Positions 14,050 to 34,535 of a DNA stretch of 52,081 nucleotides are shown here, one piece after another; within the stretch, counting starts at the first letter, position 1, and each line of letters starts with the position of its first letter. This DNA comes from Bacteroidales bacterium (GTDB lineage Bacteria; Bacteroidota; Bacteroidia; Bacteroidales; Dysgonomonadaceae). The position numbers and the translations under genes are program-made. The DNA lies in NCBI GenBank assembly GCA_012838585.1, contig DUPB01000234.1, positions 1 through 52,081 of the forward strand. The letters are read 5' to 3'. The notes beneath the pieces were generated by a model. It ran no database searches, was not told where the DNA came from, and saw only the letters and a program-made list of their open reading frames with translations.

Positions 14050-14754
14050 TCATTGTCTGTTTAAATCATCCCATGCTTTCCTGACAGCGGCGACCATCTC
14101 GTGTAGTATCGCCTCCGGGTCCTCTGCTTTCATGATCCCGCTGGTGGTACCCGTCGCATCGGCCCCTGCCCTGATCGTCCTGTAAACGTCCCGGCCGTCC
14201 TTTATCCCAGCAGCTTGTAGTACCTGGATCTCCGGGTTAACCCTCTTGATAGCAGAGGTAGTCGCGATCACGTACTCCTCGTCGCTGGTTTGCCCTGTTC
14301 CGATTAACTCCGTGGGTTCTGCCACGATGATGTTCGGGGCAAGGTGAGCAATGGCCTCCGCCTCCCGGATGGAGTCGGCGCACACCATTGAAAGCAAGCC
14401 CACCTCGTCCGCCCGCTTGATCGCCCGGGCCAAGTCGGCAAGAGTCATCGGTCTCTCGGCATGGTTAAGGATGACGCCCACGGCACCGGCCTCTTTCAAC
14501 GCCTCGGGCAGGATGGAGCCGTTTCCCTTGCCTACCGGGATCGGGTCCATGTGTTGCGCGAAAATTAGCACCCGTTTCGTCTCTTTCGCCAACCGGTAGA
14601 TATCCGACGGCTGCACGGTCAAGATTATCCTCACGTCATGTTTTTTAGAAGCTTCGTCGGCCGCTTTTGCCAGTTTCAGCACCCTTTCCCCGTACATGTA
14701 AGCTTTTGGGCCAATTTCAAAAAACGGGGGCTTCACGGTCATTCCCTTGTACAT
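14050..14754 (-). CDS. Archaeal-type triose-phosphate-isomerase-like protein
   Basis: This 234-residue TIM-barrel protein closely follows archaeal-type TPI in layout: KPPFFEIG near the start, FAQHMDPI, ILPEALKEAGAVGVILNHAERP, VAEPTELIGTG, and the phosphate-gripping loops QAAGIKDGRDVY and GTTSGIMKAEDP. The catalytic Lys (K8), His (H98) and Glu (E146) equivalents are present. The usual Asn two residues before the Lys is Thr (T6). A housekeeping TPI is normally the longer bacterial form, and this copy sits at the end of a sugar catabolic locus. I therefore infer an isomerase for a related phosphosugar (tetrose or triose phosphates), not the glycolytic enzyme. The upstream kinase-isomerase gene ends 89 bases away. 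Confidence 0.8.
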   Translation of the reverse strand: MYKGMTVKPPFFEIGPKAYMYGERVLKLAKAADEASKKHDVRIILTVQPSDIYRLAKETKRVLIFAQHMDPIPVGKGNGSILPEALKEAGAVGVILNHAERPMTLADLARAIKRADEVGLLSMVCADSIREAEAIAHLAPNIIVAEPTELIGTGQTSDEEYVIATTSAIKRVNPEIQVLQAAGIKDGRDVYRTIRAGADATGTTSGIMKAEDPEAILHEMVAAVRKAWDDLNRQ

Positions 14755-14843
14755 GTTGCTGTTCTATTTTTTACTTTTTATCCTGTCGTTTTTTTCATTC
14801 ACGGCTCCGGGTAACCCGGGAAAACGGGTTATACACGGCCGTT

Positions 14844-16907
14844 TTACTCCCTGTTCAACCGGCTTCCAACAGCACCTCCAGGATGTATCAGCGCGAATTG
14901 TTCTAATGTATAATTGGTCACCTCCATGATTGCCGCCAACATCGCGTCAAAAATGGCAATGGTTGCAACAAAGCTGGATGTTGCCATCACGTTTAGCGGG
15001 TCACTTTCTCGCTCTATCTTCATGGGAATAACAATTTGAGAGCTCTTGGCTAGTGGAGAGTCAAGATTCTCAGTTATCCCTATAAGTATAACTCCCTTCT
15101 TGTTGCATACTTCAATTATCGGGAGCAGTTCTGCCGTTTTGCCACCTCGTGAGACCATTACCACCGCGTCTTCTTTTTTCATGCATCCCATTCCCCCGTG
15201 GATGGCCTCCGCGGGTGAGAGGAATTGCGCGTTTCGTTCGATGCAACATAGCGAGTGCGCGAACTTCTTGGCAGCAATGCCAGATGAGCCGCTGGCGCAA
15301 GTAATTATCTTGGGACAACTGCTTAATACTTTAACGGCTTTTAAAAAGCTCTCTTCGTCTAAGTAGTCTATGATGTCGGAAATTGCCTTGCTCTCGATCT
15401 CCAAGGATTGTTTGGCACGTTGAAGGATTACATCTTTTTCTGTTTTTTTCATACGAATTATTTTATTGCCTAATTTATATCGTTCTACATTTATTGGATT
15501 TGGTTTTATTAACCGAGCATATCTTGCCTGCCTTTCGAAAGGTTTTAGACCGTTGTTCTCTTGAATGTTCCCCATTGCCCCGATTAACGCGGCTCCTTGA
15601 CAGGCCAGCTCGCTGCATTCGGGTACCATGAACGCTTTGTTGAGGATATCAGCTTTTACCTGTACCCATAAAAGGCTTCGTGCGCCACCCCCGGAGGCGA
15701 TTAACGCTTTCGAAACGTTTTCCCTGTCCAAGCTGTCGACCAAATCTCGTAAGCTCAAGGCCGTTGATTCGAGGATCGCCCTGACGAAATGCCCGTGGGA
15801 ATGGCGGTTGACAATATTATAGAACCCCGAGAGTGATTCATATTTGTTGGCACAGGGTAAGGCCTTTAAGCCATCACTTCCCGGGGAAATACTCTCGGCC
15901 ATCTTTAGCAGCTCTTCAATGGATAATTCAGGGGCGAACTTTTTTTGATACCACTCCAGTACCGTGGCACCGTTTTCATTGAACGCCATTTGAAAATAGT
16001 CTCCTTCCTTTAAACTTGGGGCTACATTTATTCCCTCTTTAGGTTGAAATCCTTGTCGGTAATTTACACATGCCAGCACGGTACCTGTTGATTCGGAAAG
16101 GTTGGTTGAATTGGGTAAACCCGCTCCCACAGCGACAATGTGGTGATCCAAACCTCCTAAGAAAAACTTCGTGTTGGTTGATAATCCCAAGCTTTTCGCT
16201 CTTCTCCCGATCAAAGGACCAACGAAACTACCCGTCCTTTTTGGGGAAAAGAGAAGATTCTCGCTGATATTCAGCGTCTCTAGTGCTTCATTCCACCATC
16301 TTTCCCCGGATACATCTAGCAGTCCCGTCATGGATGATGTGCTGAAGTCACTTACTTTTTGCCCGGTTAGCGAGAGTGTTAGGTAGTCTGAGATGGATGC
16401 GATGCTGCTTACCTTCTTCCAGGCTCCCGGCTTGTTCTCCTGAAACCAGGCTATTTTGGCTACCATTGATTGGACACCGGGTGAGATTCCTAATCCCGTT
16501 CTCTTTAAAAAGTCATGGTTCTTCAGTAGCGTTTGCAAGGCTGAAGGTACTCTACCAACCCTTTCGTCTGGCCACAAAATCAGTGAAGTTAACGGGGTGT
16601 CCGTTTCATCCAACAGGACGAAACTGTTGGCTTGCGATGAGTAGGAAACAGTGAGCAGCTTGTTGGGGTTAATTTTTGCCTTCTCCATTGCTTGGTTTAT
16701 GCATTTGTGAAGTGTGCTCCAAAAATCGGCGATTGGCAATTCGCATCCAACGGCATCCTGCACTACAGGAGGTGCCTTTTTTCCCCTGAAAACGGGGAAC
16801 TTTTTTCCCAAGGCATGTCGTCCCAGTCCTAAAAGGAATCCGTTCTTATCGAATATTCCCGCCTTTAAGTAGCTTGTTCCTAAATCTATGCCAAGGTAGA
16901 ACCCCAT
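14844..16907 (-). CDS. FGGY sugar kinase fused to SIS sugar-phosphate isomerase
   Basis: This 687-residue cytosolic protein has two enzymes in one frame. Residues 1 to about 480 are a complete FGGY carbohydrate kinase: GIDLGTSYLKAGIFD phosphate-binding start, LWPDERV with the probable catalytic Asp, GGLDHHIVAVGAGL, and IASGGGARSLLWVQVKAD with the ATP-binding glycines. After a charged linker, about 510-687 form a SIS domain of the KdsD/GutQ/KpsF type: PAEAIHGGMG, VMVSRGGKTAEL, ITENLDSPLAKS and the closing HPGGAVGSRL. There is no CBS pair. Where KdsD has Lys in GKSGH this protein has Ser541, and where KdsD has Glu in SGET it has Lys590, so the isomerase site is altered; H675 is kept. It starts 1 base after the amidase stop (16909), a sign of tight coupling. 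The substrate is unknown. Confidence 0.88.
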   Translation of the reverse strand: MGFYLGIDLGTSYLKAGIFDKNGFLLGLGRHALGKKFPVFRGKKAPPVVQDAVGCELPIADFWSTLHKCINQAMEKAKINPNKLLTVSYSSQANSFVLLDETDTPLTSLILWPDERVGRVPSALQTLLKNHDFLKRTGLGISPGVQSMVAKIAWFQENKPGAWKKVSSIASISDYLTLSLTGQKVSDFSTSSMTGLLDVSGERWWNEALETLNISENLLFSPKRTGSFVGPLIGRRAKSLGLSTNTKFFLGGLDHHIVAVGAGLPNSTNLSESTGTVLACVNYRQGFQPKEGINVAPSLKEGDYFQMAFNENGATVLEWYQKKFAPELSIEELLKMAESISPGSDGLKALPCANKYESLSGFYNIVNRHSHGHFVRAILESTALSLRDLVDSLDRENVSKALIASGGGARSLLWVQVKADILNKAFMVPECSELACQGAALIGAMGNIQENNGLKPFERQARYARLIKPNPINVERYKLGNKIIRMKKTEKDVILQRAKQSLEIESKAISDIIDYLDEESFLKAVKVLSSCPKIITCASGSSGIAAKKFAHSLCCIERNAQFLSPAEAIHGGMGCMKKEDAVVMVSRGGKTAELLPIIEVCNKKGVILIGITENLDSPLAKSSQIVIPMKIERESDPLNVMATSSFVATIAIFDAMLAAIMEVTNYTLEQFALIHPGGAVGSRLNRE

Positions 16908-16908
16908 T

Positions 16909-18234
16909 TTACATCCATTTTAATACCTTGAGCGTTTCGGCCAGCATTATATGACCAGCCTGGTAACCAAAGAAGGCATTTCCGGCTTCGTAATACCCCC
17001 TTTCCTCAGCTTCCTTGGTGACGATATACCCTTGAAGCTCACCGTTAGCGTAAGTTATCAACGCGACCTTCTCGGCTTGACTTTTCAGTTCAATGCCGTA
17101 CTCCACGAACACTTCACCGGACCAGGCGACAAACTTCCAATCGCCCACCTTGATTATTTGAATTTCAGCGGGGAGAGAGCTTTGGTACGCCTTTTCCAAT
17201 GCCTTGTCCCGGGACAATTTCGACAAGTAGAGTAGTTCTTCCGAACCGAACCAGTTTACTTCAGCTGTACGGATCTCCCGCGAATTCTTCGAATACTGTT
17301 TAAGCTCCTCGAAGCGTTTTTTGGTTTCGTCGCGATGCCCCGTGGCCCATTCAACCGGGGGGAAAACCCGTTTGGGCAGATTGATGAATTTTTGAACAGC
17401 CAAAACATGTGTTCGGGAGAAGAAGGTTTCCGTATCTGTTAATTTAGCTGTGAGTGAGTCCGCGACAATTTGTCCTAACCGTTTGGCTTCCCCGAACGTG
17501 TTGGCATTTGTAACGTGCCTCGGGCTTTGATTCCCAGCAGCCCCGGTAAAGTAGATAACCGGGCGGTTTTTACCTAAAACCGCGTCTTGAAGTTTTTTTC
17601 GGGCGTAATGCGGGAAATCACCGCTATATAGGGTCGAATCTTCGTGTAGGACGGTTGGATGCATGTTGCAAACCACCATACAACCGATAAATTCATTACC
17701 GTTCTTGCTTTTGACAAATAGTGCTGGAACATCCGTATCCTTTATCCATTCGGGGTTGTGACGATTAGTTCCCACGCCCGTCGCATCTCCAACGACGATG
17801 GCGATTTCGGCCAACGTCGCGTTTTCAACGGCTTGGCAAGCAGCCTTCACGCTGTTCTCTTCCATGAATCTCAGGTAGTTTTTATCCACTTTCGGTATGA
17901 CCGGATCGTTCGCGCTAATTACCAGATCTACGGTAACCGGAGCTGAATGCGTATGCGTTGCCGCTATTAATATGTTGGAAGTTCGTATCCCCGTTCTATC
18001 GGAGATTCCCTTTCTAATTCGAGCCGTTGACGCTTTACTTATGTAAATAACATCGTTGGAAACAAACAGAACCCGGTTTTTCCCGTCGCTCAGATACAGG
18101 GCTGAACTTAAGAGGTCATCGTGCGTGCCGGAACTCCTCCTTTCAACGAACGGGTAACCGAACAAGAAGTGCGATTCTCGCGGGGTGATGGTTGTCGAGG
18201 CCGCACCAGCTTTTAACTCGATCGTGTTCAACAT
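16909..18234 (-). CDS. Neutral/alkaline ceramidase-family amidase, cytosolic
   Basis: The protein has 441 residues and fits the N-terminal catalytic domain of the neutral/alkaline non-lysosomal ceramidase family, zinc amidases. Family marks are AGAASTTITP at the start, GTHDDLLSSALYL (H38), AATHTHSAPV (H94, H96), CNMHPTVL, YSGDFPHYARKKL and FTGAAGNQSPRH. It lacks a signal peptide and the C-terminal immunoglobulin-like domain of secreted ceramidases, so it works in the cytosol. It stands between a NagB-family gene (69-base gap) and the kinase-isomerase fusion (1-base gap). An action on a sugar N-acyl group is more likely than on sphingolipid. That substrate is inference from context. Confidence 0.78.
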   Translation of the reverse strand: MLNTIELKAGAASTTITPRESHFLFGYPFVERRSSGTHDDLLSSALYLSDGKNRVLFVSNDVIYISKASTARIRKGISDRTGIRTSNILIAATHTHSAPVTVDLVISANDPVIPKVDKNYLRFMEENSVKAACQAVENATLAEIAIVVGDATGVGTNRHNPEWIKDTDVPALFVKSKNGNEFIGCMVVCNMHPTVLHEDSTLYSGDFPHYARKKLQDAVLGKNRPVIYFTGAAGNQSPRHVTNANTFGEAKRLGQIVADSLTAKLTDTETFFSRTHVLAVQKFINLPKRVFPPVEWATGHRDETKKRFEELKQYSKNSREIRTAEVNWFGSEELLYLSKLSRDKALEKAYQSSLPAEIQIIKVGDWKFVAWSGEVFVEYGIELKSQAEKVALITYANGELQGYIVTKEAEERGYYEAGNAFFGYQAGHIMLAETLKVLKWM

Positions 18235-18303
18235 GTTCTTTTAATATCTTTTATTTCCATGACAGGAAAAGGAAGTACAAGGCTTTACCTTAGGAGATTT
18301 ATT

Positions 18304-19284
18304 TTAATATCCTTTAATCCAGTCTGTTTCTATGTTTTGTGCTATTGACTCCGATATGTACACATCCGTCCTCAGGGTCTGGAGTATCGATTCGGGTACG
18401 AGCGGCGTGACCGGCCCGTGCAACACGAGGCGTGAAACAAATCGTTGCCATGCGGTGGTTGTGCCATGTATGGTAATGGCGTGCGTGTCGAAGCGATGTT
18501 TGGCACTTATCACGTCCACGGGGCCTATCGTCGCCGCTTTAGGGGGTACGGCCGCTAGGTTGCCACTTTTCCCGAAGATACCGTGTAACGAATTTTGGGC
18601 GATAGTAAAGGGGCTTAATGTGCAGATCCTAGCCCCCATCTGTCTCCACTCTTCCAGTGAACCTTGGAACTCGGGTGCGTCGGGTTCAATAAAGGCCAAA
18701 TGCCCCGTCCACCCGGGTCCGCTATAACAGATGTCGGCACCCCCGTGATCGGCAATCATTTGGCTGTAGTCGTTCACGTTTTTGTTGGTAAATCCTACGA
18801 ACTGCTTTTTGGGTGGCCTGAGCTTTTCATCCAGTTCGTAGTAGAAGTATTTCATCATCGCGTGGGTGAAACCAAATTCCCATCCCTCGGGTGCTATGTT
18901 CCCATTCTCATCGGCATACTCGTCCATGGCAAAGGCGTGGAGGTTTCGGCAATCTATGTTACAAGCGTTAATCAACCGGGCTAAATGTTTGTAAAGCGGG
19001 GTCGGGTTAGGGAGTATCATCACCAGTTTTTCTCCGGTATCCGAAGCATGCTTGATCCTTTTCAACATATCCGTTATCCAATAATGGTCTACTTCTGAAT
19101 CGGGCAAGACCTTGATTCTGAAATCGGGATTTTCGTGCTTCTCTATATCCTCTCTTTTGATGGTTAACACCCTGTTGATCTCTTTTTTATCTCTAAAGGG
19201 TACCCATTTGGAAGGGTTGAAGTTAAATGACTGATTCCCTGCATTACGATTAGGGGCATGCTCAATTTTCCGAGATTGTTTCAT
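18304..19284 (-). CDS. Glucosamine-6-phosphate isomerase (NagB)-family protein
   Basis: The protein has 326 residues, about 60 longer than E. coli NagB, with a unique N-terminal 55 residues. The NagB/RpiA-like fold is clear from LPNPTPLYKHL, HAFAMDEYADENG (D121, the catalytic proton shuttle), GPGWTGHLAFIEPD and KAATIGPVDVISAKH. Compared with E. coli NagB from memory, the ring-opening His (H195) and Glu (E200) are kept, but the Asp two residues before the His is Thr193. The phosphate-binding Lys near the end of the domain (GSQKA in E. coli) is replaced in the matching stretch GTTTAWQ. It is probably an aminosugar isomerase or deaminase with a non-standard substrate. It sits between the NagA-type and ceramidase-type genes. 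Confidence 0.78.
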   Translation of the reverse strand: MKQSRKIEHAPNRNAGNQSFNFNPSKWVPFRDKKEINRVLTIKREDIEKHENPDFRIKVLPDSEVDHYWITDMLKRIKHASDTGEKLVMILPNPTPLYKHLARLINACNIDCRNLHAFAMDEYADENGNIAPEGWEFGFTHAMMKYFYYELDEKLRPPKKQFVGFTNKNVNDYSQMIADHGGADICYSGPGWTGHLAFIEPDAPEFQGSLEEWRQMGARICTLSPFTIAQNSLHGIFGKSGNLAAVPPKAATIGPVDVISAKHRFDTHAITIHGTTTAWQRFVSRLVLHGPVTPLVPESILQTLRTDVYISESIAQNIETDWIKGY

Positions 19285-19386
19285 ACGATTATCATATTTT
19301 ATTGTTCAGTACCTGATTTTTTTGATGTTTTAAAATAATCACTCCCTTAGAAGCCTTATGACTGTTTCAACCATGTTCGCTTCAAG

Positions 19387-20553
19387 TCATTTTTCATAAA
19401 AACAGTTGCCTTTTATCCATGTTTGCAAAACATTTAGGTCGTTATTAAGCACGACGAAGTCGGCGTCGTAACCTTCTTCCAGCAATCCCTTCCTATGCCC
19501 GAGTCCGAGAACCTGGGCCGGGTGATGGCTTACTAGCTTTGAAGCTTGTACTAAATCCAAGTCCAACCATTTCACGGCGTTCCTTAATGCCTGATCCATC
19601 GTCAACCCACTCCCAGCCAGCGTGTTGTCTTTGACGGAGCGTGCCGGTGCGCCTTTGTATTCGAAGTAGATGTCCCCCGAGTCCCTGAACGAGAATTGCC
19701 CGGGTTCCAATCCGGCACCCACGTTAGCGTCTGTTATCAGGCACACTTTCCCTGGCCCTTTCCTTTTGCTAATCAAGGCCATTTTCACCGCTACGGGATC
19801 AACATGCACACCATCCAAGATGAAGTCAACGCTTACCCGCTCGTCCGCTAAGATGACCTCAACCGCCCCGCAAGGACGTACCCCTGGTTCGGAAACAGTG
19901 GGGCAGGGGAACACATCGTAAAAATGGGTGGCATGCCGTGTACCCAGAGCTATGGCCTGCCGCATTTGTTCAACGGTGGCAGCAGTGTGTGTCATAAATA
20001 CCGGGGTGCCGTTGGTGGCCATCAGCGGTATCATTTTTTCAATCCCGCTCACGTCTGGTGAGATGCTGAAGATGACCTTGTACGGTCTCGCCGCGTCAAT
20101 CAAGGAACTCACCCTTTCTTCATCTGCTCCTGAAACAGCTTCCGCGGCTAAAGCCCCTGTAATTTTGAGAAAAGGACCTTCCAAGTGGAATCCCAAAATC
20201 TCCGCTCCTTCGGTTTCCGTTGTCGACAATTCCGAAAGAAAAATAGCATCTTCTCCTTTGGGTCGGGGCACCAACGTGGGTAAAAAACCGGTGACCCCGT
20301 ATTGGGGAAGGGTTTTGCTTATTCCTTTCAAGTCTTCCGCGCCGTTATCCACCAGCATCCGGTGAATACCATGTATATGCAGGTCGATGAATCCGGGAGC
20401 GATGTACGATTCACCCAAATCGATCACGTTACATCCCGGAGGCGAATTTCCTACACCGGTAATGGTTCCTCCACCTGTCGTAAGATATCCATCTATCACT
20501 TCAGAACCAGAAATTATAACTCCTTTGAAAGCTACTTGATCATTTCTTTGCAT
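19387..20553 (-). CDS. nagA: N-acetylglucosamine-6-phosphate deacetylase (NagA)-type amidohydrolase
   Basis: This 388-residue cytosolic amidohydrolase of the NagA family removes the acetyl group from N-acetyl-hexosamine-6-phosphate. The metal and catalytic residues are all in place: H59-x-H61 in IDLHIHGIH, E125 in GFHLEGPFL, H189 in MTHTAATVEQM, H210 in HATHFYDVF, H250 in DGVHVDPVAV and the catalytic Asp D275 in LITDANVGAG. The family's C-terminal SGLTMDQALRNAV and YDADFVVLN segments are also present. Length is normal. It is 80 bases downstream of the MFS gene and 102 bases upstream of the NagB-family gene. The family call is firm; the substrate may be a modified amino sugar. Confidence 0.88.
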   Translation of the reverse strand: MQRNDQVAFKGVIISGSEVIDGYLTTGGGTITGVGNSPPGCNVIDLGESYIAPGFIDLHIHGIHRMLVDNGAEDLKGISKTLPQYGVTGFLPTLVPRPKGEDAIFLSELSTTETEGAEILGFHLEGPFLKITGALAAEAVSGADEERVSSLIDAARPYKVIFSISPDVSGIEKMIPLMATNGTPVFMTHTAATVEQMRQAIALGTRHATHFYDVFPCPTVSEPGVRPCGAVEVILADERVSVDFILDGVHVDPVAVKMALISKRKGPGKVCLITDANVGAGLEPGQFSFRDSGDIYFEYKGAPARSVKDNTLAGSGLTMDQALRNAVKWLDLDLVQASKLVSHHPAQVLGLGHRKGLLEEGYDADFVVLNNDLNVLQTWIKGNCFYEK

Positions 20554-20633
20554 AACTTCACTATAAGGCCTTTTATATCATATCCACCTGATGAAGCGTA
20601 AACGCATCAACGTGGTCTGTTAATGGCAATCGT

Positions 20634-22794: not shown

Positions 22795-22861
22795 AGTGTG
22801 TAGAACTCGCTTTTAATCATTTACTTTGATGATAATGATTCTTATATTCGCCTATTGTTTG

Positions 22862-23290
22862 TTATTTATAGATTGTAAATGAACAGGATGCCTTATCGCT
22901 ATCTACTTCTGATTTGTATGTGAAACCGGCTTTTTCAACAATTGGCCTGTACAGGGCTTCACAATGATCGCAATAGGAATGATGCGGGATCATATATTGT
23001 AACTCCAACAACCTGCCTTTTGAGGGGCACCGGTGCATATCAATGCGAAATTCTCTTTTACTCGTATCTAAAGTCATCGTGAAATCAGCGGCTTCTTCAT
23101 TCAACGAATGAGACCAGTATTCAAAACAACCCTCCAAGCCTTTTTCCTTGATTAATTTCGACAATGAATCTTTTAAATAAAGATCGGACAATTCGCTCCA
23201 AAACTTCTCAACCTCTTCTTTGCCTCCAAGCTGTTCAAGAAACTTGAACCCCTCGCTATACGCGGGAATAAACTCCGTGCATGATATCAT
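22862..23290 (-). CDS. Small cytosolic protein of unknown function
   Basis: The best start is the ATG at 23290, preceded by GGAGGAGTAAC (a good ribosome site) and 1 base after the upstream stop; the frame is open further upstream, but only in overlap. The product has 142 residues with no signal peptide. It is rich in Glu and Lys, and has a cysteine-rich cluster HRCPSKGRLLELQYM followed by SYCDHCEALYRPIVEKAGF. The C-x-x-C pair and the late C-D-x-x-C resemble the L-2-amino-thiazoline-4-carboxylate hydrolase-like family, which I offer only as a weak guess. It is tightly coupled to the preceding small gene and precedes the aldolase by 67 bases. Confidence 0.55.
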   Translation of the reverse strand: MISCTEFIPAYSEGFKFLEQLGGKEEVEKFWSELSDLYLKDSLSKLIKEKGLEGCFEYWSHSLNEEAADFTMTLDTSKREFRIDMHRCPSKGRLLELQYMIPHHSYCDHCEALYRPIVEKAGFTYKSEVDSDKASCSFTIYK

Positions 23291-23291
23291 G

Positions 23292-23777: not shown

Positions 23778-23861
23778 GACTCTACCTGTGTTTTTACTCT
23801 GATCGTTATCGTTTACATGGCGTCTCTAATACTTGGCATTACGCATGTTATAGTTGAAAGC

Positions 23862-25397: not shown

Positions 25398-25521
25398 ACT
25401 CTTATTGATAAAATGGGTGTCACCATCCCCGTGAACTCAAAAATAGACTTTTTTATCACTCAGAGTACCTTAGAGGATCGAGTAAGAAGTGATACATCAA
25501 AAATGATTTGCCGCGAATTCA

Positions 25522-26712
25522 CTAAAAATACCAACCGAAAAATTTCATTTCTGCAACAGCGATTGTTGCCCCAGACCAAGCTGATTCAACAACGACACGT
25601 ATGTATCGTACAGGTTGCTGTGTCGGATCAACGTAAAACTCATGCCCTTCAGCAGCAATAGCAATATCCTCAGGTGAATTCTCCCCGGCGGGTAAACCTG
25701 AAGGTTTAGTTATTTCAAAATCGCCAAGTTTACTCCATTTGCTAAAATCAGCTGAAACAGAAGGTGAATCTGAACCCCATAACTGGAATTTTTTCACGTT
25801 TTGACTATCATATAATAAATTCTGGCGTTGAAATAATTTTATCCGCTCAAGCTTAATATTCTTACCTAAATCAAATGTAAAACTGTAAGGGAGTTTCCCG
25901 GCAGCAACCAGGTAAAAGCTATTTACATTATTATCCCATAACCTCTCAATATGATAGCTCCCATAAACCTTGTACGGGATTCCTGTAGGATTCCACCTTT
26001 TGAACCCGCCAATTAATTCACCGTAAGTAGGTTCTTCTAATTGTACAAATTGATAATCGGTATAAAATGTATCTATCGCGGTGGGTGTAGGTAAATAGAG
26101 GGTACGATACTTTAAATCCTTGCCATAGTCAAAAAATTTCGTGACAACTTCATCCTGTGAAACAATTTTTGACACCTCAAGATTATCACTATTGCGATAA
26201 ACAATCTCATTGCCTATCTCATTATCATTTGGAGAATACCACTCTATTGCAATATCCTTGCTGGAAATGAGTTTTGCAGATTTGATTAAATGAAAATTTA
26301 TAGAGGATTGAAATCTCTCCCCATACGTGTTGCCAGTAATTTGGTAGGGGACAGATCTACAGGTGAGGTCTTCTTTCATCGTAACCAGTTCAAAATTATA
26401 GTTGCTCTCTGGCAGATTATTAATCAATAGATCAACAGAATCACGTGTTGGAATAGATACTAAAATGGAATCACTACGTAATTGCCAATATACCATCATC
26501 TTTTTTGCTTTTGGATCTGAAGACCAATATCTCATCAAAACTCTGTCTCTGCCCGAGAAAACTTTAACCGAGTCAGGGCGACCAACATAAATAGTTTCAC
26601 CTTTTCGTAGGTACTTGTCATGCAAATCATTCATATCTGAACAGGCAAATAGCGATACCAATGCATAGACTAATACCAGATAATACGATTTATCCATTAT
26701 TCTATGTTTCAT
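25522..26712 (-). CDS. DUF4998-DUF5000-type surface lipoprotein
   Basis: The start chosen is ATG 26712 (MKHRIMDKSYYLV); the frame is open to 26748, but that would only extend a signal peptide and overlap the upstream stop. The lipobox is SLFAC. The N-terminal part, with HDKYLRKGETIYVGRPDSV and a fibronectin-like fold, fits DUF4998. The C-terminal 160 residues (GGFKRWNPTGIPYKVYGSYH, FTFDLGKNIKLERIKLFQRQ, VRYIRVVVESAWSG) fit the discoidin-like DUF5000 domain. It is paralogous to the next lipoprotein upstream. Such proteins follow SusC/SusD and are thought to bind glycans at the cell surface. Confidence 0.8.
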   Translation of the reverse strand: MKHRIMDKSYYLVLVYALVSLFACSDMNDLHDKYLRKGETIYVGRPDSVKVFSGRDRVLMRYWSSDPKAKKMMVYWQLRSDSILVSIPTRDSVDLLINNLPESNYNFELVTMKEDLTCRSVPYQITGNTYGERFQSSINFHLIKSAKLISSKDIAIEWYSPNDNEIGNEIVYRNSDNLEVSKIVSQDEVVTKFFDYGKDLKYRTLYLPTPTAIDTFYTDYQFVQLEEPTYGELIGGFKRWNPTGIPYKVYGSYHIERLWDNNVNSFYLVAAGKLPYSFTFDLGKNIKLERIKLFQRQNLLYDSQNVKKFQLWGSDSPSVSADFSKWSKLGDFEITKPSGLPAGENSPEDIAIAAEGHEFYVDPTQQPVRYIRVVVESAWSGATIAVAEMKFFGWYF

Positions 26713-26737
26713 AATTTGATATTTTTCAAAATTAGAT

Positions 26738-27910
26738 TTATTTTTCAATACTCCCGAAAAACCTTAGTTCTGACATAGAAGCATTCGCGTCACCACTCCA
26801 GGTTGCAACGATCACGTAACGAATATAACGCACGGCCGGAGCATTCGGATCTATATTAAAATCATGTCCCTCTGCAGCTACGGCAATATCTTCCGGTGAA
26901 TTTTCACCGGGTGGTAAACCGGATGGTTTGATCATTTCAAAATCACCCAATTTAATCCATTTTTCAAAACTATCTGATACTTCACCGGGTGAATTGGTTC
27001 CCCATAACTGAAAATATTGTATGTTTTGCGAGGTATAAATCAGAGCTGCACCCTGTCGTTGAACTTGCTTTACACGTGAAAATTTAATCTTTTTCCCTAA
27101 ATCGAATGTAAAACTGAATGGAAACTCACCCTTTGTTTGCACGATGAAAAATGAATTTATATTTCCATCCCAAATATTTTCAATATGGTAGTGCGCATAT
27201 GCTGTATATGGAATTCCTGGCGGATTCCATCTTCGCATACCCTCTTTCAACTCTTCTTCAAACAGAGGGGTGAAAACCCTTGAAATGGTATCTGAATGGT
27301 TTCCCCAACGATCTCTGATGTATATGTTGAAAAGTCTCTCTTCTGAATCGAAGCCACGGACGTTACCCGTGCCCGTAAGAGAATTAATGTAAAAATTCTT
27401 GGTATTTACCATTTCTCCAGCCTCATTGGGTGAATCTACACAAATCACCATCTCTTTGCCTGTAGGATTGTCCCAAACAATTCTGATCCCACCGAAATCC
27501 TCTGCTAACATTAAGGATGCTAAAGTTGAGTGGATTGGACTATCCAAGGGAAAGACTTTGACGGTAACGGGTAAACTTTCATTCCTGCTCCTGTCAACAG
27601 CCACCAATTCGACGTCAAGTTCGTGAGTTCTGTTTATGCCTTCAATCTTAATGTTTCGGGAATAGGCCGATACTTTTTGCTCAGTTTCTACTCCATTGTC
27701 TCTTGTATAAGACGCCTTTACATACAAAAGGTCATCATCGTCGGGTATTTCATAATGAATAATGGATTCACCCTCTAAATTTTCAACACGTAAAAGTTTT
27801 ATTTCACCTGGAGGCACACTATCTATCGGGTATTGGCCTCTCTCGCTTTCATTACATCGGAAAACGAGCAATAGTAAAATAAATAGCCAAAAAAGATGTT
27901 TTATTTTCAT
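26738..27910 (-). CDS. DUF4959-DUF5126-DUF5000-type surface lipoprotein
   Basis: The protein has 390 residues with a lipoprotein signal ending in LLLVFRC (Arg before the Cys is unusual). Three beta-sandwich domains are seen: an N-terminal fibronectin-like part (PPGEIKLLRVENLEGESIIH, DUF4959), a middle part (LASLMLAEDFGGIRIVWDN, DUF5126), and a discoidin-like C-terminal part (RWNPPGIPYTAYAHYHIENI, FSFTFDLGKKIKFSRVKQVQ, DUF5000). The last part is a clear paralogue of the neighbouring protein's, sharing the KPSGLPxGENSPEDIA block. It lies 29 bases after SusD and is likely a surface glycan-binding accessory protein. Confidence 0.82.
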   Translation of the reverse strand: MKIKHLFWLFILLLLVFRCNESERGQYPIDSVPPGEIKLLRVENLEGESIIHYEIPDDDDLLYVKASYTRDNGVETEQKVSAYSRNIKIEGINRTHELDVELVAVDRSRNESLPVTVKVFPLDSPIHSTLASLMLAEDFGGIRIVWDNPTGKEMVICVDSPNEAGEMVNTKNFYINSLTGTGNVRGFDSEERLFNIYIRDRWGNHSDTISRVFTPLFEEELKEGMRRWNPPGIPYTAYAHYHIENIWDGNINSFFIVQTKGEFPFSFTFDLGKKIKFSRVKQVQRQGAALIYTSQNIQYFQLWGTNSPGEVSDSFEKWIKLGDFEMIKPSGLPPGENSPEDIAVAAEGHDFNIDPNAPAVRYIRYVIVATWSGDANASMSELRFFGSIEK

Positions 27911-27939
27911 AGTTCATTTTTTATATTGTATGACGATAT

Positions 27940-29832
27940 CTACCATCCAGGATTTTGAAACAGGTTGGTATTAACAGAAAGGTCGTACTGCCGAATAGGC
28001 CAGAAGACGTCTTTCAAATAGTAATCGACATTTTTAAGGGTGATTACCTGATAAAACTCTTCGGGAGTCCCTTTGGAAATATTCCAACCTTGAATGGGTT
28101 GACCAAAAGATTCTAGCGCCTTCTTCCAACGTCTTATATCCCAAAATCGATGCATTTCGAAAGCCAGTTCTATCGTTCTTTCCCGGTGAATAATCTCTCG
28201 CATGCCGCTTTGGGTCGTAAATTTGTTAGGAGATTTCGAATAATTGCTCCATGACTCCTTAACACCCCTCAAACCGGCACGTTCCCGAATGGGGTCTAAA
28301 TAGTCGAAAATCTCCTCTGGAGGTGTATTATTGGCTTCATTTAGTGCCTCGGCATATAACAAGTATAAATCAGCTAAACGAAAAATCGGCCAATTCCATT
28401 TTTTGTCCACATAATTGGTCGCGTTGTAGGTCGACTCGTAATTGTGTAGCTTTTTTATGTAAAACGATGTGGGTGAAAATCTTTCGACACCCATTTTCCC
28501 TGACGTCTCACCAACCTTAGCTTTGATTGGCCATTGCTCCTTGTCATTTAACCTTCCTAAACCAAACCACCACCCTCCGTCAACGCCAATACTTCCATAA
28601 AAACGAGGCTCTCGGTTCAAATGAAGTTTCGCGGTAATAAATTTGGGTTGCATAAAGTAAAAAGCTTGATCAGGAACCGTTGTTAAACCATATCGATCTC
28701 CATAATCAAATGCTAAGTCTTCATCAATAGGCACCCCATTTTCAGAATAAAACATCTCTACTATTTTCATTGTAGGTGCCCATGTTCCACCACCGGAAAA
28801 TACCCTATGATTGGGGTGCAATGGGGCAATCGTGAACTGTTCATTTTCGTAACTTCGGTACCATCTTGAATTGGAAGTCCATCCCCAAATATGTTCGTCA
28901 TTCCATTTATCCGTTATAATTTGACTCACTTGCAACACATACCTTGTTGAGTCGGAGATCGGTAACGGCGCCGTAAATTTATATAGTCGATGGCCTGCTT
29001 CATGACATGCATCTATTGCCACCTTACATGCATCTGCAGCTCTCTTCCATTTCCCAAGATCATAGGTTTGATTAAACATTTGCTTTCCTCTTTTGTCTAC
29101 CAACATAGCATAATCGGTGTTCCCATTAAATAGAGGACTAGCGGCTGTCACCAGGATTTTAGCTTTCACGGAAAGAGCAGTTGCTTTTGTTATCCGCCCT
29201 AATTCTGAAACTCTGTTATCAATTTCAAGCGGTAGATCGGGAATGGCTTCATCCAACAATTCGATTACATAATCAAATACTTCATCAACAGGTTCCCTAT
29301 AAACTGCGACCTCTTTAGGAGTAGACGAGATGAGCATATTTTCTTTCACAATGGGAATAGGGCCGTACAACTGCAATAGGTAAAAGTGATAAAAAGCTTT
29401 CAAGAACTTCACTTCAGCGATCCATCTGGCTTTTTCATACTCATCCATATCTACTACTTGTCCAATATTTTCTAAAAAGGTATTGCAATCTCTAATCCCC
29501 TGCCATAGGGGGCTACCACCGTTAGTACCATTCCAGAAGTTTAATATTGGATTAGAGGTGTTATTCCCATTATAATAAAGGATGTCAAAACCCCTGTTGG
29601 GGAAATTAACGCTTCGTTCAGGGTTAGACCAAATCTCATCTGTCACTAATCCCGGGTCATAGGCGGTACCGAAAGCGGGAAGGTAAGAATAGCAGGTATA
29701 GAGATAACGTTGCGCCCTTGGTCTGTCATGGAATGCATGCTCCAATGTTGGAATATCATCAGGAACAATGTCGAGATACTCGCAGGAGAAAAAGGAGATA
29801 AAGATAAAACAAATAATTACTTTATATTTCAT
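27940..29832 (-). CDS. SusD/RagB family glycan-binding lipoprotein
   Basis: The start is set at ATG 29832 (MKYKVIICFIFISFFSC); the frame runs on to 29868 but that would overlap SusC. The lipobox is SFFSC, with Cys at about 17. The helical SusD fold shows in YLYTCYSYLP, ARWIAEVKFLKAFYHFYLLQ, LSVKAKILVTAASPLFNG, RLADLYLLYAEALNEAN and the C-terminal RERTIELAFEMHRFWDIRRW, the most conserved SusD block. It caps the SusC transporter at the outer membrane and binds the incoming glycan. It starts 13 bases after the SusC stop, the standard PUL order. Confidence 0.93.
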   Translation of the reverse strand: MKYKVIICFIFISFFSCEYLDIVPDDIPTLEHAFHDRPRAQRYLYTCYSYLPAFGTAYDPGLVTDEIWSNPERSVNFPNRGFDILYYNGNNTSNPILNFWNGTNGGSPLWQGIRDCNTFLENIGQVVDMDEYEKARWIAEVKFLKAFYHFYLLQLYGPIPIVKENMLISSTPKEVAVYREPVDEVFDYVIELLDEAIPDLPLEIDNRVSELGRITKATALSVKAKILVTAASPLFNGNTDYAMLVDKRGKQMFNQTYDLGKWKRAADACKVAIDACHEAGHRLYKFTAPLPISDSTRYVLQVSQIITDKWNDEHIWGWTSNSRWYRSYENEQFTIAPLHPNHRVFSGGGTWAPTMKIVEMFYSENGVPIDEDLAFDYGDRYGLTTVPDQAFYFMQPKFITAKLHLNREPRFYGSIGVDGGWWFGLGRLNDKEQWPIKAKVGETSGKMGVERFSPTSFYIKKLHNYESTYNATNYVDKKWNWPIFRLADLYLLYAEALNEANNTPPEEIFDYLDPIRERAGLRGVKESWSNYSKSPNKFTTQSGMREIIHRERTIELAFEMHRFWDIRRWKKALESFGQPIQGWNISKGTPEEFYQVITLKNVDYYLKDVFWPIRQYDLSVNTNLFQNPGW

Positions 29833-29845
29833 AGCATCAAAGTTT

Positions 29846-32800
29846 TCAAAATGAGACTTGTAAACCAAAATTTATCACTTTTTGAATCGGATAACCTAAC
29901 CCATTTCCTGCCATTTCGGGATCCCATAATTTAAAACTGCTCAACGTGAGAAGATTAATGCCCGAAAAGTAAGCCCTCATATTGGACAACCCCATGTGCC
30001 CAATGTATTTCTTAGGTACTGAAATACCCAATTCAACAGATTTCAACCTTAAAAATGAACCGTCACGCATAAACCACGTACTCCTTAACCTATTGTTCGA
30101 GTTCAATTTATCTGATAAACGAGGCCAAATAGCATATAAGTCACGGTTGTCTTCAGACCAATGACTCTCTTCATATACCTTTAATAGTGCTGTTTGGTCT
30201 ACAAATGGCGCGGTTGCATCATAGTCGATCCAGAACGATTCTCTTGCTAAGCCTTGAAAGAAAAAAGAGAGATCAATAATTTTGTATCCAAATGATAGTC
30301 CGAAACCATAAATAATCTCCGGGGTTGTAGGATATCCTATCGCTACCATATCTAACTCATTGATCACACCATCACCATTGATATCTTTATACTTGATGTC
30401 ACCTGCCATGGCATCAGCCATTTGTGCCGGAGAATTTATGATCTCATTTTCATCAACAAACAGACGTTCTGCAATATATCCCCAACTTTGCCCGATTGAG
30501 TAACCAATCCTTGATTGCCAAGGTGTTGCACTGTAGTCGGGTTCTTCGTAAACCTCATATTTACTGGTGGCATAGGTGAAATTGAAGCGACCTGTTAACC
30601 AGGTATCTTTATTAAAACTCTTTTTAATGTCAATGGAGCCATCAAACCCTTTAGAAGAAGCTTCTCCCACGTTGGCTTTAGGGATAGCCGCGGGAGTTAA
30701 CCCCAATGTCGCGGGAATATGGGCACGAGTCATCAATATATTTGAGCGGTATTCTTGATATATTTCAGCATTTAAATCGACAGCATCTAAAAAATTGATT
30801 TCTATTCCCAGGTTTGATTTTTTCGCGATTTCCCAAGTGATATTTGGATTGGCATACCGTTGTACGGTGATACCAACTTTATATTCCTGGAAATCCTGTC
30901 CGAACAGGAAAGATTTAGAGGCATCGTTCATTTGTACTTGAGATAAGTAGAAGAAACGATCATTGGGACTTCCAATTTGATCATTACCTGCTATTCCCAC
31001 CGTTGACTTCAACCTGAATTTTGGAATGATCTCTTTGATGTTGTCTCCCCAGAACGATTCATTTGAAATATTCCATGCAAGCCCCATTGAGGGGAAAAAA
31101 CCGAAACGGTGTTTTTCATCAAAACGCTCTGAACCATTATACCCGAAATTAGCTTCGATAATATAACGATCTCTGTAACCGTACGTAAATCTCCCGGCAA
31201 GTCCCATGTTCCTAAAAGCCAGTGAGTTTTGAAGACTACCGGCATTCCCAATCCTCCTGTTGCGCATATGAAAAACTAATAACCCACTAATCGTATGTTT
31301 ATCATTGAACATGTTCTCGTAGGATAGTGCAGTCTCTAAATAGGAGTTCGAAGAAATTTCCTTTTGTCCTTCAGAATAATCTAAGAAATCTGTTCCTGTT
31401 TCCTCATTAATAGGGAATAGGGTATATTTTCCCGTGTTATCGTCATATCCCCCAATAGAATAATAAAAAGGACGATAAAATCTTCTTACATCATAGTATG
31501 AGTTGTTGGTGTTACTATACAATCCCCTCACGCTTAATCCTTTCAATATGAAATTTAAATTTTGTCTCAGTTCGAATTGAGACAAAACCATTGTTTTTGT
31601 ATACTCTTTGTAACCTCTCATCAAATTAGCATACGGGTTATTATATCCCCCGAGATCATAATTACCGAAAAAAATATGTTTTTTGTGCTTATTCGGTTCA
31701 TCGGGCGAATAATAGGGCTGAAATAGAACGGGATTTGCATGAATCACATCATTAAAGATCTTTGTCGCACCATCGAGAGGCCCTGTATAGTCATCAAACG
31801 TAGCATGTAACCTTGTAATGATTTCGGTAGTGGGAGTTACGTTGATATTTATATTTGAGCGTAAAAGATACTTTTTTAAATCAATATTACTGTTAAAATT
31901 ATTTCTTTTGTCAACCTTTAATATACCGTTATCCTGGTTAAATGTAGCTGCCACATAGTACCTGGCAATTTTCCCTCCACCACTGATATTGAGATTTAAC
32001 CGATCGTTAACAGCTTGATCTTTAAACAACATCTTGTGCCAATCTATCGCTGGATACAACAAAGGATTCGCACCTGCAGCCGTCTTTTCAATTTTCTCTA
32101 AGCTGTATATAACGTCTCTTTTTGAATCTCGGGTAGTGATTGACTCATTATGTAACTGCATGTAGGTTACGGGGTCAGCTAACTCCAAACTACGGGTGGG
32201 AGAAGAAATTGACTTTTCATACCTTACCGATACATTCACTCGACCTTCTTTCCCTTCTTTAGTTGATACCATGATTACACCATTTGCACCCCTTGCACCA
32301 TATAATGAGGTGGCGGAAGCATCTTTCAAAATAGAAAAACTGGCTATGTCATCGGGTTGCATTCTTGCCAAATCACTAGATGCCATTTCGACACCATCAA
32401 TTAATATTAATGGTGAGGCAGTGTAACCAAAGGTTGTCACACCCCGGATAAAAAAATCCAGGTCATCATCCCCCGGTTCTCCACTACGCTGGTAAGAGAT
32501 CATTCCTGGCACCCTTCCGGATAGAGCCGTTGTGAAATTACTACTGGGTATCTTCAAGTCAGATGGATTTACTGTCGTAATAGAAGAGACGATACTCTCT
32601 TTTTTCTGCTTTCCAAAAGCAACAATTGTCACCTCTTCTAACTCATCAGCTTTTTCCTTTAAGATTACATCTAAAGTGGTTTGGTTGCCAATTCCTATCG
32701 TCTGGGTTTCAAGTCCCACGAATGAAAATACCAGTTTATCCGTTGGTTTCACATCAATAGAATAGCTTCCATCGATGTCTGTAGAAACACCTCTTGTAGA

Positions 32801-33022: not shown

Positions 33023-33380
33023 GTTTTAGTGTTTTTTTAGAATTTACTTTGATGACGACAATTGTTAACAACTTGTTTCCCTAATCTTTGTATCTTATTC
33101 ACATTGATTCGGGTGGTAACTAATAACTAGCTACTCAATTACACTGTTTGTTTCAATCACCCAAACCTGAATGGTTAAAGTACTTTTGCTTATGTAAAGG
33201 TATATCTTTTTAATAGCTCAAAATGGATAATAAACGAATTTCTACTGACACATCACGTATATTTTTCATACTAAAATGTCAGATAGAGAACATTATGATT
33301 TTTTTATTGTTTTATAATTGGTGCCTTTTGAATGATCAGTGGCATTTACACTTTTTTTGAAAACTTGAAATCGAATACCA
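33023..33380. promoter_or_regulatory. Divergent control region between susC and its regulator
   Basis: The 358 bases between two divergent start codons are AT-rich and hold no gene. They should carry both promoters and the regulator's binding sites. On the plus strand TACTTTTG (33181-33188) fits a -7 element but lies 190 bases from the regulator start, and TTTACACTTTTTTTG near 33345-33360 is a looser match. No clean leftward TAnnTTTG with a -33 partner is seen before susC. No strong palindrome stands out. Confidence 0.5.
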
Positions 33381-34535
33381 ATGATAAAAATTTTAGTGCT
33401 AATAGATTCAGCTACCGAGTTTAGCCGCCGTTTTTTGACCGGTTTAATCCAATACGCCAATGAAAATGGCCCTTGGACATTTTATCGCCTGCCTTCTTAT
33501 TACAAGGCATTGTACGGTGAAGCTGGTATTTTAGAGCGAATTAATGAGTGGGAAATAGATGCCGTGATAGCTCAATGGGAGTACGAGAGGGTGGACTTCC
33601 TTGACCAGCTAGATATTCCGGTTTTTCTACAGAGTTACCGAAATATCAGCGGACGATTTTCAAGAATATCCGGTGATTACATTGGCGCAGGCGTGATGGC
33701 CGCTCAATTTTTCTCTAAAAGGTATTTTAAGAATTTTGCTTTTTATGGCAACAAAAATTTTTACTGGTCGAAAGCCAGGGCCGAAGGCTATCGTCGGGAG
33801 GTTGAAAGGATAAAAGGGAACTATTATTATTTTGAGTCTGAACTGTTAGACAGCATGGAGTGGAGCAAGGAGCATGTTGAGTTGGACGATTGGTTGCAGT
33901 GTTTGCCCAAGCCGGTGGCCCTGTTTGCATGTGATGACATTTTTGCTTTGCAGGTGTCGGAAATGTGTAAGGTGAATAACATCAATATTCCGGATGAATT
34001 GTCGTTGTTGGGGGTAGATAACGATGAGTTGATATGTAACTTGTCACATCCTTCTATCTCTTCCATTGTTACGGATGATGAAAACGGGGGATATCAAACG
34101 GGGAAAATGCTGCAGAACTTGATTGTAAGCAAAAATAACATCCCCTTCGGTATCAATATCGACCCGATACGTATTGAGTTGCGGCAATCCACGGAGAAGT
34201 ACAACATTTCTGATGTTTACGTGAAAAAGGTGATCGAGTATATCCATGAAAACATCCGGATGAATATATCTGTTGATGAATTGACCTCTATTGTTCCGCT
34301 TTCGCGTAGAAACCTTGAAAAGAAGTTCCGGGAAGCTGTCGGTGCATCGATCTATCAGTTTATATTGGATAAAAAGGTGGACTTGATCACGAATGAACTG
34401 CTGACAACCGATAAGGATTTGTTGGATATTGCCATTGAAACGGGGTTTAATGATGTGAGGAATGTTTATAGGATCTTTAAAAAGAACACGGGGCATACGC
34501 CGATTAGTTTCAGGAATAAATACCGACAAAAATGA
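33381..34535 (+). CDS. XylR-type transcription regulator (sugar-sensor + AraC HTH)
   Basis: This 384-residue cytosolic regulator has no N-terminal LacI helix-turn-helix. Residues 1-270 form a periplasmic-binding-protein-like sugar sensor: ILVLIDSATEFSRRFLTGLI, DAVIAQWEY, SGDYIGAGVMAAQFF, FACDDIFALQVSEMC, LSLLGVDNDELIC. Residues about 280-384 form an AraC-type double HTH: ISVDELTSIVPLSRRNLEKK and LDIAIETGFNDVRNVYRIFK, followed by the typical T-P-x-x-F-R. This is the domain plan of E. coli XylR, used in Bacteroidota for small loci induced by a cytosolic sugar. It is transcribed away from susC and most likely controls the large leftward operon. Confidence 0.9.
   Translation: MIKILVLIDSATEFSRRFLTGLIQYANENGPWTFYRLPSYYKALYGEAGILERINEWEIDAVIAQWEYERVDFLDQLDIPVFLQSYRNISGRFSRISGDYIGAGVMAAQFFSKRYFKNFAFYGNKNFYWSKARAEGYRREVERIKGNYYYFESELLDSMEWSKEHVELDDWLQCLPKPVALFACDDIFALQVSEMCKVNNINIPDELSLLGVDNDELICNLSHPSISSIVTDDENGGYQTGKMLQNLIVSKNNIPFGINIDPIRIELRQSTEKYNISDVYVKKVIEYIHENIRMNISVDELTSIVPLSRRNLEKKFREAVGASIYQFILDKKVDLITNELLTTDKDLLDIAIETGFNDVRNVYRIFKKNTGHTPISFRNKYRQK

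Follow-up and report, generated by a model that had tools for sequence, protein, structure and literature searches.

Introduction

What does a bacterium degrade with a locus that places an aldolase of the DapA/NanA family beside members of the NagA and NagB families, a ceramidase-family hydrolase, a sugar kinase and a triosephosphate isomerase (TPI)-like protein? The question is raised by a 52,081-nucleotide stretch of DNA from a Dysgonomonadaceae bacterium of the order Bacteroidales (contig DUPB01000234.1 of assembly GCA_012838585.1; hereafter the window), which is contig C157, in full, of a 3.2-Mb draft genome. A sequence-only reading of the window had proposed that the whole set serves one pathway for an amino sugar or nonulosonate. 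Our preferred explanation, which we hold at a probability of roughly 0.4, is that the locus consists of three parts, namely an uptake half of the SusC/D type, an aldolase front end, and a core that would handle free amino sugars and phosphorylate late.

According to this explanation, the surface and Sus proteins would take up a glycan or oligosaccharide, and the part formed by two small proteins (orfA and orfB), the aldolase and an MFS carrier would import a 2-keto-3-deoxy sugar acid (ulosonate), for which a sialic-acid-like compound is the best guess. The aldolase, whose Schiff-base lysine is placed by alignment, would carry out a class I retro-aldol split that yields pyruvate and an N-acyl-hexosamine in free form. 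Acyl groups would be stripped from this free sugar by the NagA-like and ceramidase-like hydrolases, the NagB-like enzyme would isomerise and deaminate the free hexosamine to a ketose, and an FGGY kinase would phosphorylate that ketose, so that phosphorylation comes late. A SIS isomerase, the TPI-like protein and a UPF0047 protein would then carry the ketose phosphate into central metabolism. What the sequences support is a SusC/D pair, an aldolase scaffold of class I, deacylases of two families, a sugar kinase, a phosphosugar isomerase and a NagB-like protein devoid of a phosphate site, whereas the order of the steps, the substrate and the product are what we propose on that basis.

Catalytic and phosphate-site residues of the core enzymes

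We place the kinase after the NagA- and NagB-like steps mainly because both proteins appear to have lost their phosphate ligands. The references were the E. coli K-12 proteins, with residue numbers and roles as in the E. coli literature. In the NagA-like protein E131, H195, H216, H251 and D273, metal-site residues included, are kept in all six rows aligned; R227, which we take to be a phosphate ligand, is Ser or Thr in all six, N219 is Asp in five and Asn in one, and A220 is Val in six. The NagB-like protein keeps D72, H143 and E148, presumably catalytic together with D141, in 7/7 rows. The 41-44 loop, R172 and K208 of NagB presumably make up the phosphate site; the loop is missing and R172 is Leu in all seven rows, and at K208 all three tabulated core rows have Thr, the gap placement around it being uncertain in a larger alignment. 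At D141 and at the phosphate ligands, the protein thus departs from the residue pattern of a NagB glucosamine-6-phosphate deaminase. The claim of phosphate-site loss covers the core rows: a distant NagB-like row from the organism's own contig C51 retains Arg at 172, and a 255-aa NagB-like protein of genome G349 keeps K208 and has lost R172. In the ceramidase-like protein 15 positions are invariant in 15 rows, among them H94, H96, E374 and Y403, which we take from motif correspondence to be zinc ligands. The changed active-site positions to which the sequence-only reading had drawn attention are therefore real in these alignments. As judged from them, the NagA- and NagB-like proteins keep most catalytic residues and have lost phosphate ligands, and deacylation and deamination probably precede the kinase.

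A second recurring set, found in L060 (on C51), L057, L059 and L061, combines a PIG-L deacetylase, a distant NagB-like protein and an IolG-like GFO protein, with a DegT aminotransferase in two of the four; locus L005 has related genes. This set may represent a parallel free-amino-sugar route.

Layout of the locus

The locus comprises 15 genes on the minus strand, running from 33022 to 13405 with gaps of -23 to 144 bases, and a regulator that diverges from them at 33381-34535 on the plus strand.

33381..34535, plus strand: XylR-type regulator; Peripla_BP_3 sugar-binding domain and AraC helix-turn-helix
29846..33022, minus strand: SusC TonB-dependent transporter; Plug and CarboxypepD_reg domains
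27940..29868, minus strand: SusD; SusD_RagB PF07980, 189.9 bits
26738..27910, minus strand: DUF4959/DUF5126/DUF5000 lipoprotein; profile match, lipobox by eye
25522..26748, minus strand: DUF4998/DUF5000 lipoprotein; profile match, lipobox by eye
23862..25397, minus strand: lipoprotein with TIG domain and BNR_2-like propeller; BNR_2, 31.2 bits (cut-off 31.4), lipobox by eye
23292..23777, minus strand: orfA, small protein with TRAPP/V4R-like predicted fold; model pLDDT 81.2, weak fold matches (TM ~0.5)
22862..23290, minus strand: orfB, small protein; sub-threshold ATC_hydrolase match, 20.1 bits (cut-off 28.1), kept in L011, L007 and L005
21898..22794, minus strand: DapA/NanA-family aldolase; DHDPS PF00701, 90.8 bits
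20634..21908, minus strand: MFS carrier, galactonate-transporter-like; MFS_1, 206.8 bits; top NCBIfam match D-galactonate transporter, 142.3 bits (cut-off 395)
19387..20553, minus strand: NagA-like deacetylase, equivalent of Arg227 lost; TIGR00221, 230.5 bits (cut-off 225.65)
18304..19284, minus strand: NagB-like protein without phosphate-site residues; TIGR00502, 49.5 bits (cut-off 236.9), alignment
16909..18234, minus strand: neutral-ceramidase-family hydrolase, no obvious signal peptide by eye; Ceramidase_alk PF04734, 55.3 bits (cut-off 32.1)
14844..16907, minus strand: FGGY kinase (about residues 1-485) fused to KdsD/GutQ-like SIS isomerase (486-687); FGGY_N, FGGY_C and SIS in a single 687-aa open reading frame (ORF)
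14050..14754, minus strand: archaeal-type TPI-like protein, catalytic Asn replaced by Gly; PRK04302, 202.6 bits (cut-off 132), TIM, 79.1 bits, alignments
13405..13905, minus strand: UPF0047 (YjbQ family) protein, last gene of the locus; UPF0047, 102.5 bits

The adjacent susC and susD homologues are one mark of a polysaccharide utilisation locus (PUL) of the SusC/D type. A single transcript for the 15 minus-strand genes is plausible; promoter and terminator scans found no excess of sites over shuffled sequence (39 versus 42.4 and 17 versus 19.7). All genes named in the sequence-only reading were recovered at the same positions, and profile searches agreed with their families. It had passed over three genes, those for UPF0047, orfB and orfA, all of which recur in related loci, and its NagB family protein proved to be a far relative, well below the TIGR00502 cut-off and with no Pfam match at E 0.001. 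The fused kinase-SIS gene is found in the window only, as all eight other loci with both genes have two ORFs; the junction DNA was compared for three of the eight. In G344 and G359 the two genes overlap or nearly overlap at stop and start. The fusion may be an assembly or sequencing error.

A conserved core with exchangeable front ends

Core loci were read at the DNA level in 12 cases (the window, L011, L007, L036, L039, L042, L044, L045, L046, L047, L049 and L050; a core fragment in G364 stands outside this count), among which L036 and L039 can hardly count as independent, the scores of their genomes being identical. The NagA-, NagB- and ceramidase-like genes follow one another in this order in all 12, and the FGGY kinase comes next in 11 of the 11 uncut loci (L044 stops before it). 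SIS, TPI and UPF0047 come after the kinase in nine of the ten loci that continue past it (L050 stops within the kinase). The exception is L047, in which a transposase-like ORF, recognised by eye, takes the place of all three and an IS110-type transposase ORF separates NagA and NagB. The gene order thus recurs in other genomes and is not due to chance.

The genes upstream of the core vary. Three of the 12 loci (the window, L011 and L007) have orfA, orfB and a DHDPS aldolase; five (L036, L039, L042, L045 and L046) have an HpcH/HpaI aldolase with AKR, GFO and SDR genes, to which only L036 and L039 of the five add an aminotransferase and an amidohydrolase; and two (L044 and L047) have GH109-like genes and an MFS carrier of another kind, with no aldolase. 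An MFS gene of the latter kind lies directly before the contig end in L049, and the front end of L050 is unreadable. The second copy in the organism's own genome (L011, on contig C130) reads orfA, orfB, aldolase, MFS, NagA, NagB, ceramidase-like, FGGY, SIS, TPI and UPF0047, with kinase and SIS separate, and Massilibacteroides vaginae (L007) has this order with AKR and SDR genes between MFS and NagA, its SIS gene having been located by tblastn.

With seven of the ten readable upstream halves lacking this aldolase, the proposal that the whole set is one nonulosonate pathway is not supported; a single dedicated pathway of that kind is weakened by the differing front ends. Instead, the locus is modular, and its core takes a compound that varied front ends can deliver. 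The sequence-only reading had named separate conservation of the two halves among the outcomes that would speak against it, and the varied front ends come close to that. They are countered by relatives of the window SusC/SusD pair (43-63% identity) that occur together with the SIS-TPI-UPF0047 tail or the whole core on the organism's own contig C222 and in G336 and G383.

Two further observations concern copies of the core. The NagB-like gene at L049:7697-8664 is broken in frame in G341, being either a decaying copy or a draft error, and L012:7693-9063, near the core copy on C130, encodes a DegT-family protein whose N-terminus looks by eye to be of the twin-arginine type.

The core is rare and the aldolase front end rarer still, judging by the match counts in family and phylum samples. 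The NagB-like protein has a match of at least 75% identity in 11 of 101 genomes of the organism's own family, and the TPI-like protein at E 1e-30 in 8/101; the aldolase at E 1e-40 matches its own genome only (1/101). In the phylum samples, kinase (1/296 genomes at E 1e-60) and TPI (1/395 at E 1e-30) likewise match their own genome alone. A scan of genome contigs with the aldolase yielded four loci, L004 and L005 from Bacteroidota metagenome-assembled genomes, L006 from Paenibacillus nasutitermitis, and L007.

The regulator and its contexts

Of 101 family genomes, 12 encode an orthologue of the XylR-type regulator with at least 70% identity; seven of these have the core and five lack it. GH109-like genes stand in the XylR cluster in four of the eight contexts read (G341, G344, G321 and G349); in G359, G383, G350 (cut short) and the window, Sus genes adjoin the regulator and the stretch read has no GH109-like gene. 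The regulator lies in the core locus itself in the window, G359, G383 and G321. In G349, which has no core, its neighbours are SusC, SusD, the 255-aa NagB-like protein, a GH109-like protein and an MFS carrier. GH109 is a family of N-acetylgalactosaminidases; family membership was tested for the L044 protein (130 bits, GH109 C-terminal domain), and the others are its BLAST relatives.

The XylR-type regulator has orthologues both in aldolase loci and in clusters that contain GH109-like genes, and its most likely ligand is therefore a free N-acetylhexosamine. The contexts suggest that such a sugar is both inducer and core substrate, with N-acetylgalactosamine (GalNAc) as the simplest case. Because different front ends feed the core and the XylR orthologues cluster with GH109-like genes, the core input is probably free N-acetylhexosamine, the aldolase only making that sugar in aldolase loci.

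A family of about 325-380 aa also recurs (L044:7050-8129, L047:14765-15742, L005:13334-14404 and L095:8072-9214); it looks by eye like a GH20-type barrel, and the members from L005 and L044 have no Pfam match. It is possibly an unassigned hexosaminidase.

The aldolase front end and its candidate substrates

The aldolase keeps the equivalents of the Schiff-base lysine Lys165 and of Tyr137 in 6/6 rows, and the earlier description of an amino-sugar type SusC/D locus with a DapA/NanA-type aldolase is supported. Its sequence lacks the NanA signature: the GSTGE motif reads GSMG[NK], and Glu192, which in NanA presumably contacts the substrate side chain, is aligned to a gap in 6/6 rows. The absence of NanE, NanK and RnBP had also been reported, and it is true of the locus, whereas the genome has one match to PF07221 (RnBP/AGE family), on contig C81. 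A NanE-family match at E 0.001 is absent from 10/10 Bacteroidota genomes searched (nine with the core, and that of L005). A standard sialic-acid locus is rejected as a classification, given that NanE is absent and that the signature residues of NanA, NagA and NagB differ.

The only glycan-active candidate in the window locus is the BNR_2-like protein, just below its cut-off and with no relative of solved structure; as a sialidase, which the earlier description had likened it to, it is not recognisable. The sialic-acid-like setting finds its support in M. vaginae, where a GDSL hydrolase, a kelch protein (NANM family, 76.8 bits with a cut-off of 45, among several kelch families) and a GH33-like BNR protein are encoded just upstream of orfA. 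Among solved structures, this BNR protein matches BNR/Asp-box and sialidase entries best (E 1.5e-16 to 2.4e-14, around residues 146-358).

Might the locus nonetheless serve ordinary use of N-acetylneuraminic acid, with a divergent NanA, a housekeeping AGE epimerase (that on C81) and N-acetylglucosamine enzymes receiving N-acetylmannosamine, and a core that acts on 6-phosphates as in the nag route? The AGE-family gene, the NagA-like score just above its equivalog cut-off and the sialidase- and NanM-like genes of L007 would fit. However, we consider it quite unlikely, as the NagA- and NagB-like proteins have lost phosphate ligands, the window BNR protein lacks a sialidase match, M. vaginae (G495) has no AGE match, and the FGGY kinase and the tail are left unexplained.

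A second alternative is a different nonulosonate. In L005 the aldolase relative and orfA/orfB are accompanied by a PseC/LegC-like aminotransferase (TIGR03588, 235 bits; cut-off 423.5) and a PIG-L deacetylase, which would fit di-N-acyl nonulosonates of the legionaminic or pseudaminic type. The aldolase would then release a 2,4-diacetamido-2,4,6-trideoxyhexose, two deacylases would remove its two acyl groups, and the kinase would act on O1 of a 6-deoxy ketose; both the presence of two deacylases and the loss of Glu192 would be explained. Yet no aminotransferase was found in the window locus, the same core is also fed by GH109-like front ends that have no aldolase, and no such pathway appeared in the titles and abstract openings of the open-licence papers listed on the breakdown of legionaminic and pseudaminic acid. 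We regard this alternative as unlikely.

As for orfA and orfB, they accompany the aldolase in the window, L011, L007 and L005 (in the last, orfA forms a fusion with a ceramidase-like domain, and the aldolase lies three genes further on). They were not seen in L006, and the upstream sequence of L004 is too short to tell. The sub-threshold ATC_hydrolase match of orfB is found in the window, L011 and L007, and not in L005. The orfA model resembles TRAPP/Bet3 and, more weakly, MopR/PoxR sensor domains; the orfB model (pLDDT 55.5) is too poor for use, and comparing the profiles of orfA and orfB gave no significant match. Our guess is that they assist the aldolase step as small partners that bind a ligand or take part in catalysis.

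The SIS-TPI-UPF0047 tail

The window SIS is closest to KdsD/GutQ arabinose-5-phosphate isomerases. In the Bacteroidota rows His88 and His193 are kept (6/6), Glu111 is Lys (6/6), and Lys59 is Ser in five and deleted in L045. For the TPI-like protein the alignment with E. coli TpiA is unreliable at the N-terminus, and a solved archaeal TPI was used instead: Lys, His and Glu of the catalytic set are kept in 14/14 rows, and Asn is Gly in nine and kept in five. A SIS gene lies nearby in the loci of all nine Gly-type rows, and the loci of all five Asn rows have a class II aldolase-like gene. Related rows are not independent in this split, and family tests cover the aldolases of L073 and L076 and the SIS of L070, the others being assigned by eye or alignment. 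Exceptions are an ORF at 11238 of L076, SIS-like by eye, and G336, which has both a SIS and an aldolase-like gene.

The tail also occurs apart from the core. On the organism's own contig C222 (L013, L054 and L055), SIS, TPI and UPF0047 are 83, 76 and 90% identical to those of the window, and SusC is 56% identical; the contig further encodes another FGGY kinase, an L-arabinose-isomerase-like enzyme (82.9 bits; cut-off 622), GH2, arabinofuranosidase-like and sub-threshold GH141-/GH127-like proteins. G336 (L091 and L094) has a kinase, an AraA-like isomerase, a transporter and the tail, with a DhnA-type aldolase-like gene (157 bits to PRK07226; cut-off 241). Thus a Sus locus of the plant-glycan type, in C222 and G336, has the same tail as the window.

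Among 299 genomes of Bacillota, the phylum of the L006 genome, eight have a PRK04302-type TPI, and UPF0047 adjoins it in all eight (L070-L077). In L070-L072 the pair is accompanied by a SIS gene and an Rpe-like gene, and the stretches of L070 and L072 also encode a fructose-type phosphotransferase system (PTS), that of L071 being no more than 4.4 kb long; the other TPI-UPF0047 loci have class II ketose-bisphosphate-aldolase-like and PTS genes, several assigned by eye. Family tests of L070 gave 207.7 bits to 6-phospho-3-hexuloisomerase for the SIS (cut-off 160), which is a different subfamily from the window SIS, 230.8 bits for Rpe (212.6) and 367.4 bits for the PTS fructose EIIC (157.55). Because the two genes are adjacent in 8/8 Bacillota loci, some with PTS and isomerase genes, TPI-UPF0047 is a recurrent pair in sugar catabolism. 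The UPF0047 family is named only for a secondary thiamine-phosphate synthase activity, and no paper with both 'UPF0047' and 'triosephosphate isomerase' was found in the open-licence literature searched.

These tails bear on a third alternative, in which plant-type ulosonates (Kdo or Dha of rhamnogalacturonan II) would be split by the aldolase into pyruvate plus either D-arabinose or a C4 product, D-arabinose then being turned into ribulose 5-phosphate by the kinase and the KdsD-like SIS. The kinship of the SIS to KdsD/GutQ agrees with it, as do the SusC/D and tail relatives that stand with an L-arabinose-isomerase-like gene in C222 and G336 and, in C222, with GH2, arabinofuranosidase-like and GH127-like genes. 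It is nevertheless very unlikely. The NagA-, NagB- and ceramidase-like genes, present in 12/12 core loci, would have no job, GH109-like genes occur in 2/12, and Lys59 and Glu111, which we take to be important KdsD residues, are changed.

A bolder and rather improbable proposal is that the core handles free N-acetylhexosamines by a route, so far undescribed, in which phosphorylation comes last and the tail performs a 'carbonyl walk'. The kinase would make a ketose 1-phosphate, and the TPI-like protein, UPF0047 and SIS would shift the ketone carbon by carbon until a ketose 6-phosphate (5-phosphate for pentuloses) results. The Bacillota stretches in which TPI-UPF0047 occurs with 6-phospho-3-hexuloisomerase and, by eye, no adjoining hexulose-phosphate synthase are in keeping with it. 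If it were true, UPF0047 (YjbQ) would be a sugar-phosphate isomerase, and amino sugars and neutral sugars (the C222 and G336 loci) would use one exit. Tagatose is an attractive candidate for a common node, which GalNAc might reach via galactosamine and galactose via an AraA-like enzyme. An ending of the fuculose/rhamnulose aldolase type was set aside, as none of the genome's Aldolase_II matches falls in the locus: two share one 434-aa frame on C126, and a weak one is on C239.

Next to the tail, a DUF4861 gene on the plus strand (10765-13383) points towards the UPF0047 end of the locus and is convergent with it. Outside the locus lie a tRNA-Ser (cga) at 7156-7243 and a GH3 glycosidase gene at 43175-46030.

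Discussion

Several observations weigh against a three-part locus with a late-phosphorylating core. The NagA-like protein passes the TIGR00221 NagA equivalog cut-off, by 5 bits, and the catalytic Asp141 of NagB is Thr in 7/7 rows, so the chemistry may differ. For an aldolase that lacks Glu192 and the S47-T48-G-E motif, a normal sialic acid substrate is not assured, and a comparison of the window BNR protein with solved structures gave no sialidase match up to E 10. Two deacylases are one too many for one N-acyl group, a fructose product would need no three-part tail, and no role is assigned to orfA and orfB. The closest XylR orthologue lies away from the core in G344 (77 kb), G345 (31 kb) and G341 (another contig). 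Finally, G321, 99% complete, has the core, but a TPI of the window type was not found genome-wide at E 1e-30, nor were SIS and UPF0047 found in the stretch read; the tail is not strictly required.

How does the locus compare with known systems? Like E. coli nanATEK-nagBA, it combines an aldolase of the NanA superfamily, an MFS carrier and proteins of the NagA and NagB families. It differs in having no NanE match, in lacking GSTGE, Glu192 and the phosphate ligands of the NagA- and NagB-like proteins, and in using an FGGY rather than a ROK kinase in the locus (no ROK kinase was found among the window locus genes, to which the search was confined). The NanLET-type locus of B. fragilis brings together an aldolase, a transporter and an epimerase in a Bacteroidota locus. 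The window shares the first two, and L007 adds sialidase-like genes, but the window locus has no epimerase, that family being found elsewhere in the genome (C81). Erythritol and threitol pathways employ a TPI-like tetrulose-phosphate isomerase with a second isomerase, and thus resemble the window in their sugar kinase, TPI-like protein and second phosphosugar isomerase; in the window an archaeal-type TPI and a SIS replace these enzymes, and amino-sugar enzymes lie upstream.

The GH109 PUL BT4240-50 of B. thetaiotaomicron, characterised for GalNAc and equipped with a GalNAc kinase (PMC11992087), is like the L044/L047 relatives of the core in its SusC/D, GH109 alpha-GalNAcase and MFS carrier. 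Its GalNAc-specific kinase acts on the N-acetyl sugar, whereas the core of the window has NagA-, NagB- and ceramidase-like proteins before an FGGY kinase. The window has an aldolase in addition, and neither a GalNAc kinase nor GH109 was found among the window genes searched, which were the scope of the kinase search. The deacylase-NagB-kinase order is thus probably unlike both the nag/nan routes and the GalNAc-kinase route of B. thetaiotaomicron. In the open-licence literature compared, which includes PMC11992087, PMC7768429, PMC6685057 and PMC10101011 and consists mostly of titles and abstract openings among the matches listed, no pathway matched the free-sugar NagA/NagB/FGGY order with a TPI-UPF0047-SIS tail. 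As a SusC/D locus the system is ordinary; what appears to be new is the proposed late phosphorylation together with the tail.

If the three-part explanation is true, some Bacteroidota would degrade amino sugars in the reverse of the textbook order, and annotation would tend to misname the NagA- and NagB-family enzymes of the core as 6-phosphate enzymes. UPF0047 would be tied to sugar-phosphate catabolism, and a small set of proteins is now defined on which both claims bear.

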